A DNA stretch of 45,346 nt from Deltaproteobacteria bacterium (lineage in GTDB: Bacteria > Desulfobacterota > Syntrophia > Syntrophales > UBA8958): contig JAPLJZ010000067.1 in the NCBI GenBank assembly GCA_026388335.1, positions 1-45,346 on the forward strand. The letters are read 5' to 3'. Of the stretch, positions 40,134 to 41,141 are shown one piece after another. The position numbers were made by a program, and so were the translations under genes. The notes beneath the pieces were generated by a model that saw nothing but the letters and a program-made list of their open reading frames with translations, searched no databases and was not told where the DNA came from. Numbering within the stretch: the first letter of the stretch is position 1; the number at the start of each line of letters is the position of its first letter.

Positions 40134-41141
40134 TTAATTATTCACCAGAAATTGCTTAAAGCAACCATTATTTATGGCCTCCCGGATCCTCTCCATAAGA
40201 CGCATATAGTGCCGCAAATTATGGATCGTGTTAAGGATCATCCCCAGGATTTCACCACTTACGAACAGATGCCTTAGATAGGCCCGCGAATAGTTTTTGC
40301 AAGTATAACAATCGCATAGGGCGTCTAAGGGCGAGTGGTCATCCCGATAACGGGCGTGCTTTATAACAATCTTTTCCGCACTTGTAAATAATAATCCGTG
40401 TCGGGCGCAATAGCGGGGACGGTCTTCCGGAAGTTGCGGGGTCATTTCCCGAACAATGGAAATCATTTTTTCTTTGGGTTCTCCGACACTGAGTCCTCCC
40501 AGCGCCAACCCTTCAAAGGGCAGATCCACAAGACCTTCCAGGGATCTCTTGCGTAAATCCATGTACATCCCCCCCTGGACAATGCCAAAAAGAGCAGCGG
40601 GGGAGTTTTTCCGCTGCTCATGACAACGCCTTGCCCATCTCAGGGTCCGTTCGAGTGAGATTTCGGCCTCCTGGACAGAAACCGGGTAGGGGGTGCATTC
40701 GTCAAGGCACATCATGATATCGGACCCCAAGGCGAGCTGAATATCGACAGCCAGCTCCGGGGTGAGGAAGTGCCGCGACCCGTCAATGTGAGATTGGAAC
40801 ATCACACCCTCCTCGGAGATTTTGCGCAGGGGCCCCAGACTGAATACCTGATAACCGCCGCTGTCCGTCAGAATGGGCCCCTGCCAGTTCATAAAGCGAT
40901 GGAGTCCCCCCGCTCTGGCAATGCCCTCGTGACCCGGACGCAAATATAGATGGTAGGTGTTGCTCAGGATGATTTCCGCCCCGAGGTCTCTGAGCATGTC
41001 CGGGGTCAGGGCTTTCACCGTTCCCTGGGTACCCACGGGCATGAAAGCGGGGGTATGGATTTCGCCATGGACGGTGCGAATCCTTCCCGTCCGGGCGGCG
41101 CTGTGGGCATCTTTTTTAATGACGTCAAAGCTAAAATTCAT
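40134..41141 (-). CDS. tgt: tRNA-guanine transglycosylase, catalytic segment deleted in frame
   Basis: A 335-residue Tgt. It should exchange G34 for preQ1 in tRNAs with GUN anticodons. Preserved: [10 protein letters not shown] with the general-base aspartate D93, [29 protein letters not shown], and the zinc site [17 protein letters not shown] plus NTIHNL. At residues 243-249 the sequence reads RYCARHG. Normal Tgt has RYLMGVG...GIDMFDCV-PTRNARNG here, so about 28 residues (about 84 bases) are missing without a frame change, including the aspartate nucleophile (D264 in E. coli). E. coli Tgt has 375 residues. Unless this is an assembly error, the protein can hardly be active. The ATG 41141 has AGGGA upstream. 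It follows queA by 77 bp. Confidence 0.9.

Follow-up and report, generated by a model that had tools for sequence, protein, structure and literature searches.

The window analysed here, a 45,346-nucleotide stretch forming contig C159 of a draft assembly (4.06 Mb, 268 contigs, 98.9% complete, 4.9% contaminated), carries a tRNA-guanosine(34) transglycosylase gene (tgt) that reads through in a single open frame and yet has no catalytic aspartate. The question this locus raises is whether the organism carries a shortened Tgt, disabled or put to another use, or whether the missing bases were lost from the assembled sequence. The features concerned are:

40134..41141, minus strand: tgt, tRNA-guanosine(34) transglycosylase, 335 aa as written and 28 residues short (TIGR00430, PF01702)
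40410..40411, minus strand: junction in tgt, 84 bp of relatives absent between the two bases
41219..42256, minus strand: queA, intact and adjoining tgt (NF001140, 417 bits; TIGR00113, 363 bits; both above cut-off)

The tgt gene as written and its missing segment

The preliminary description had read RYCARHG at residues 243–249 and placed a loss of about 28 residues, or 84 bases, within 40395–40425. The translation of 40134–41141 gives the same residues, the junction at 40410/40411 lies inside that interval, and the size proved exact when the gene was compared with its counterpart in the nearest relative, which belongs to the same genus (locus L004 of genome G006, ~95% DNA identity). Nucleotides 1–731 and 732–1008 align without gaps and the relative holds exactly 84 bp more between them, encoding residues 245–272 of its Tgt. 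The reading frame is kept across the junction, which carries no N, and no microhomology was found at the ends of the deletion, as judged on the relative’s sequence. The TIGR00430 match (448.9 bits, cut-off 306.75) is split into two stretches, and the PF01702 match (468 bits) covers only profile positions 2–233 and 261–350, both within the one open frame.

Much of what characterises an active bacterial Tgt (TIGR00430, PF01702; Zymomonas mobilis, PDB 1enu) is retained, including the rest of the sequence, a profile score above the curated cut-off and the queA neighbour. The general-base aspartate (D93, in TDSGG(Y/F)Q, equivalent to Asp102 of active Tgt) occupies an invariant alignment column, as do C276, C278, C281 and H307 (CxCxxC...H), which by their spacing pattern are probably the zinc ligands. 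The frame, zinc site, general base and adjoining queA are hence intact, as first described. The copy in the window differs from bacterial Tgt in lacking the 28 residues, and alignment to relatives and to 1enu bears out the further claim that the aspartate nucleophile and part of the preQ1 site went with them. In this part of the protein the numbering of the relative is offset from 1enu by 14, so that the preQ1-stacking methionine is Met246 (Z. mobilis 260) and the nucleophile Asp266 (Z. mobilis 280). Met246, in the Met-Gly that follows PRY, is presumably the preQ1-pocket residue of the bacterial enzyme, and this Met-Gly is absent from the window’s copy along with the nucleophile. Asp280 of Zymomonas Tgt is described as acting as the nucleophile in formation of the covalent intermediate with tRNA (PMC6165067, PMC3660597), and a preQ1-pocket role is stated for Met259 of QTRT1 (PMC6165067).

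Structure prediction with AlphaFold2 gave the short Tgt a mean pLDDT of 86.7, with residues 38–41 and the junction residues 247–249 below 50, vs a mean of 91.3 and no residue below 50 for a control run on the intact Tgt of the relative G002 with the same other alignment rows. A helix (251–259) and a strand (264–267) of the control model fall in the absent stretch and have no replacement in the short model, in which the strand at 32–36 of the control is also no longer called. The closed (beta/alpha)8 barrel expected of an active Tgt is therefore missing from the prediction, and because the lost helix and strand are unreplaced, a working barrel and catalysis are unlikely. Judged by its residues and its predicted fold, no transglycosylase activity is expected of the short Tgt as written.

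Relatives, selection and the queuosine pathway

Alignment to the Tgt of close relatives, suggested as a check in the preliminary description, found the short form in none of those compared. The segment and its DxxDC motif are present in all 109 related tgt loci and missing from the window’s copy alone. These loci are a nearest-relative sample, combining 29 from one search with the best 80 of at least 592 matches from another, and represent 107 distinct proteins as two genes entered by both routes. A wider profile survey of the class covered 140 of the 200 genomes requested at a completeness of at least 80%, of which 131, the window’s own included, had a match. Among the other 130, a single match spans profile positions 224–270 in 124, and six have fragments only (G014, G087, G106, G112, G134 and G136); in the first three of these, the matches start at the contig’s first base or within two bases of it. 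A split at profile positions 233/261 within one frame occurred in none of the 130. A short form shared across the lineage is thus rejected on the 109 loci and the survey. No tgt match was found in nine of the 140 survey genomes, nor in four of the 60 genomes in the search that supplied the 29 loci. Genome G002 has a weak second PF01702 match (contig C6, 35448–35858; 26.5 bits) in a 373-aa frame.

With the absent stretch left out, tgt compared with its G006 counterpart gave a dN of 0.016 and a dS of 0.171 (dN/dS ~0.09), and queA gave 0.028 and 0.266 (dN/dS ~0.11). The value for tgt therefore indicates ordinary purifying selection until very recently. When changes in tgt were polarised with G002, four nonsynonymous and 12 synonymous changes fell on the window’s branch and one and 20 on the branch of G006, a contrast that falls short of significance (Fisher p 0.14) and is at most a hint of relaxed constraint on the window’s branch.

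Elsewhere in the assembly, the remaining queuosine genes were located as follows:

L045 (contig C123 of this genome, G000), 9912–12290: queC-queE-queD-queF cluster, from profile matches and gene order
L044 (contig C153 of G000): QueH gene, from a profile match

The matches to QueC, QueF, QueH and QueA lie above the curated cut-offs; the QueD and QueE calls combine gene order with best matches that are sub-threshold (80.5 bits against 89.25 for QueD, 88 against 260.1 for QueE). The profile search of the genome returned no match to QueG (PF08331) and matched QueH instead, hence QueH may stand in for QueG in the last queuosine step. Two of the options first raised, that queuosine had been lost or that another Tgt is encoded elsewhere, fared poorly: loss of the pathway is rejected on the presence of the QueC, QueE, QueD, QueF, QueH and QueA genes, and a search of the whole assembly (98.9% complete) for a second tgt found PF01702 at one locus only, so that any second Tgt or partner gene would have to lie in a part left unassembled.

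A second gap and the background of gaps

A further gene on the same contig, 27 kb from the tgt junction, is also broken:

13062..13998, minus strand: LysM-NlpC/P60 gene, broken; 56 bp absent at 13362/13363, frame shifted

The 56-bp gap, measured against G002, is clean and its ends are without microhomology. It splits the gene into two frames by Pfam, with LysM in one and NLPC_P60 from profile position 20 onwards in the other. The NlpC/P60 domain thereby loses its GLDCSAF stretch, which we take to hold the catalytic cysteine of that family. That both gaps strike catalytic stretches is probably coincidence. The match is continuous through the 56-bp site in seven of the seven other same-genus genomes searched; the G006 copy of the gene runs on into another contig. 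The copy in genome G007 (contig C248, 27165–27989) has another gap, upstream of this site, and lacks approximately residues 52–108, in the LysM region, within an open frame of 275 aa.

The background of such losses was gauged by a gap scan against G002 covering 36,896 bases of the window and, on other contigs, 105,051 non-redundant bases, with neighbouring gaps merged. Within the window, the only losses of at least 40 bp inside open frames of G002 were the 56-bp and 84-bp gaps. On the other contigs a single place was listed, where 48 and 75 bp are absent from a 114-aa ORF of G002 with good outer flanks; this ORF is judged spurious because it lies in a dispersed ~125-bp repeat, with a gene on one side and two tRNA-like stretches on the other. 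No loss of at least 40 bp in a conserved gene was therefore seen in the 105,051 aligned bases of the other contigs. The repeat itself is intergenic in G002 (L227, 2051–2250, and 15 further matches, copies 73–91% alike) and is absent from the present genome at ~14130 of L192, ~13715 of L143, ~7460 of L131 and ~35930 of the window.

Where each flank reaches at least 75% identity, the smaller losses relative to G002 measured 17, 19, 20 and 27 bp, and G002 itself lacks 15, 43 and 56 bp at three places, in ORFs of 416, 112 and 135 aa; the remaining gaps in this comparison have poor flanks. Between G006 and G002 (47.6 kb), the sole open-frame gap of at least 30 bp is one of 39 bp in a 106-aa ORF. 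Gaps outside open frames were seen in all three genome pairs. Conserved genes here hence seldom show clean losses of intermediate size, although gaps of this size are not unknown, and the count of two in the window and none in 105 kb elsewhere is suggestive without being proof.

Assembly gap, null allele or short Tgt

On balance, we lean towards the missing 84 bp being an assembly or consensus gap and not a recent null allele, because the queuosine pathway is otherwise present, constraint on tgt is normal, no relative compared shares the short Tgt and another clean deletion lies on the same contig; this last also inclines us to a gap, not conclusively. The 84 bp would then be absent from the assembled sequence and not from the organism, through a local failure of assembly or consensus in a draft that is probably metagenome-derived. 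Both gaps, of 84 and 56 bp, would have been made in assembly with the source DNA whole, and the actual gene would encode an ordinary Tgt of 363 aa that inserts preQ1 at G34 of GUN tRNAs and feeds QueA and QueH. A likeness exists to the assembly-derived pseudogenes of draft genomes, in that a conserved gene is gapped in a draft and a second such gap lies on the contig. The study that describes them attributes many apparent pseudogenes to errors of sequencing or assembly and deals with frameshifts and internal stops (PMC11017572), whereas the tgt gap is in frame and of 84 bp.

Against an assembly gap, the junction is clean, in frame and free of repeats, and the sequence offers no obvious cause for one. 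Assemblers usually collapse repeats, and two broken genes per 45 kb is probably within the range of real bacterial genomes, which also counts against it. Several causes of the loss were considered. Recombination between direct repeats is rejected on ends that show no microhomology on the relatives’ sequence. Hairpin-driven loss is a weak candidate: an inverted pair of 17 nt (76% complementary) lies near the ends of the 84-bp segment, but by z-score the segment forms no strong hairpin (−0.62 with flanks, −1.63 alone; 0.09 for the 56-bp site). A chimeric join of distant loci is unsupported as both flanks are collinear with G002 and G006. Nor do k-mers shared with relatives offer an evident cause, since in comparison with three same-genus relatives the DNA of the segment is no more conserved than the remainder of tgt, which likewise speaks against an assembly tangled by conserved DNA held in common.

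A real and very recent in-frame deletion, which would leave the sampled strain with a tgt null allele, is a serious contender that we place somewhat short of an even chance. The tRNA would keep G34 and the preQ1 made by QueC, QueD, QueE and QueF would go unused, and bacteria can do without Tgt. The clean, N-free junction in frame agrees with such a deletion, the non-significant excess of nonsynonymous changes on the window’s branch leans the same way, and the second disrupted gene would also suit a strain in which null alleles are building up. However, the remaining queuosine genes are present and open, the short form is found in none of the relatives compared, and because overall constraint on tgt is normal the loss would need to be very young.

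That the short Tgt functions, either as a non-catalytic tRNA-binding or scaffold protein or as an enzyme with another nucleophile, is very improbable: the open frame, zinc ligands, general-base aspartate and still high mean pLDDT are in keeping with it, but the form is unseen among the relatives compared, confidence collapses at 247–249 and 38–41 where the control has no such dip, and the single PF01702 locus leaves no catalytic partner in the assembly. The nearest known likeness is eukaryotic QTRT2, the non-catalytic Tgt subunit, which likewise belongs to the Tgt family and has no functioning set of catalytic residues. As described in excerpts of PMC6165067, QTRT2 has substituted catalytic residues, keeps the barrel and works with QTRT1, whereas the window’s Tgt is without a barrel strand and no partner gene was found in the assembly. 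Also very improbable is a natural Tgt that lost a barrel strand and the nucleophile and was kept as a tRNA-binding protein beside a whole queuosine pathway. The locus is better explained by an assembly gap, most likely, or failing that by a very recent disabling mutation, than by a novel type of enzyme. Of the two readings first offered, an assembly gap and an inactive real excision both stand, and repurposing, loss of the queuosine pathway and a second Tgt have found no support.

The case matters mainly as a caution for annotation: the curated Tgt profile scores this gene far above its cut-off even though the nucleophile is gone, and automatic annotation would therefore call it functional. 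Should the deletion prove true, the species would present a queuosine pathway, otherwise intact, shortly after its insertion enzyme was lost, which would be a modest example of early pathway decay.
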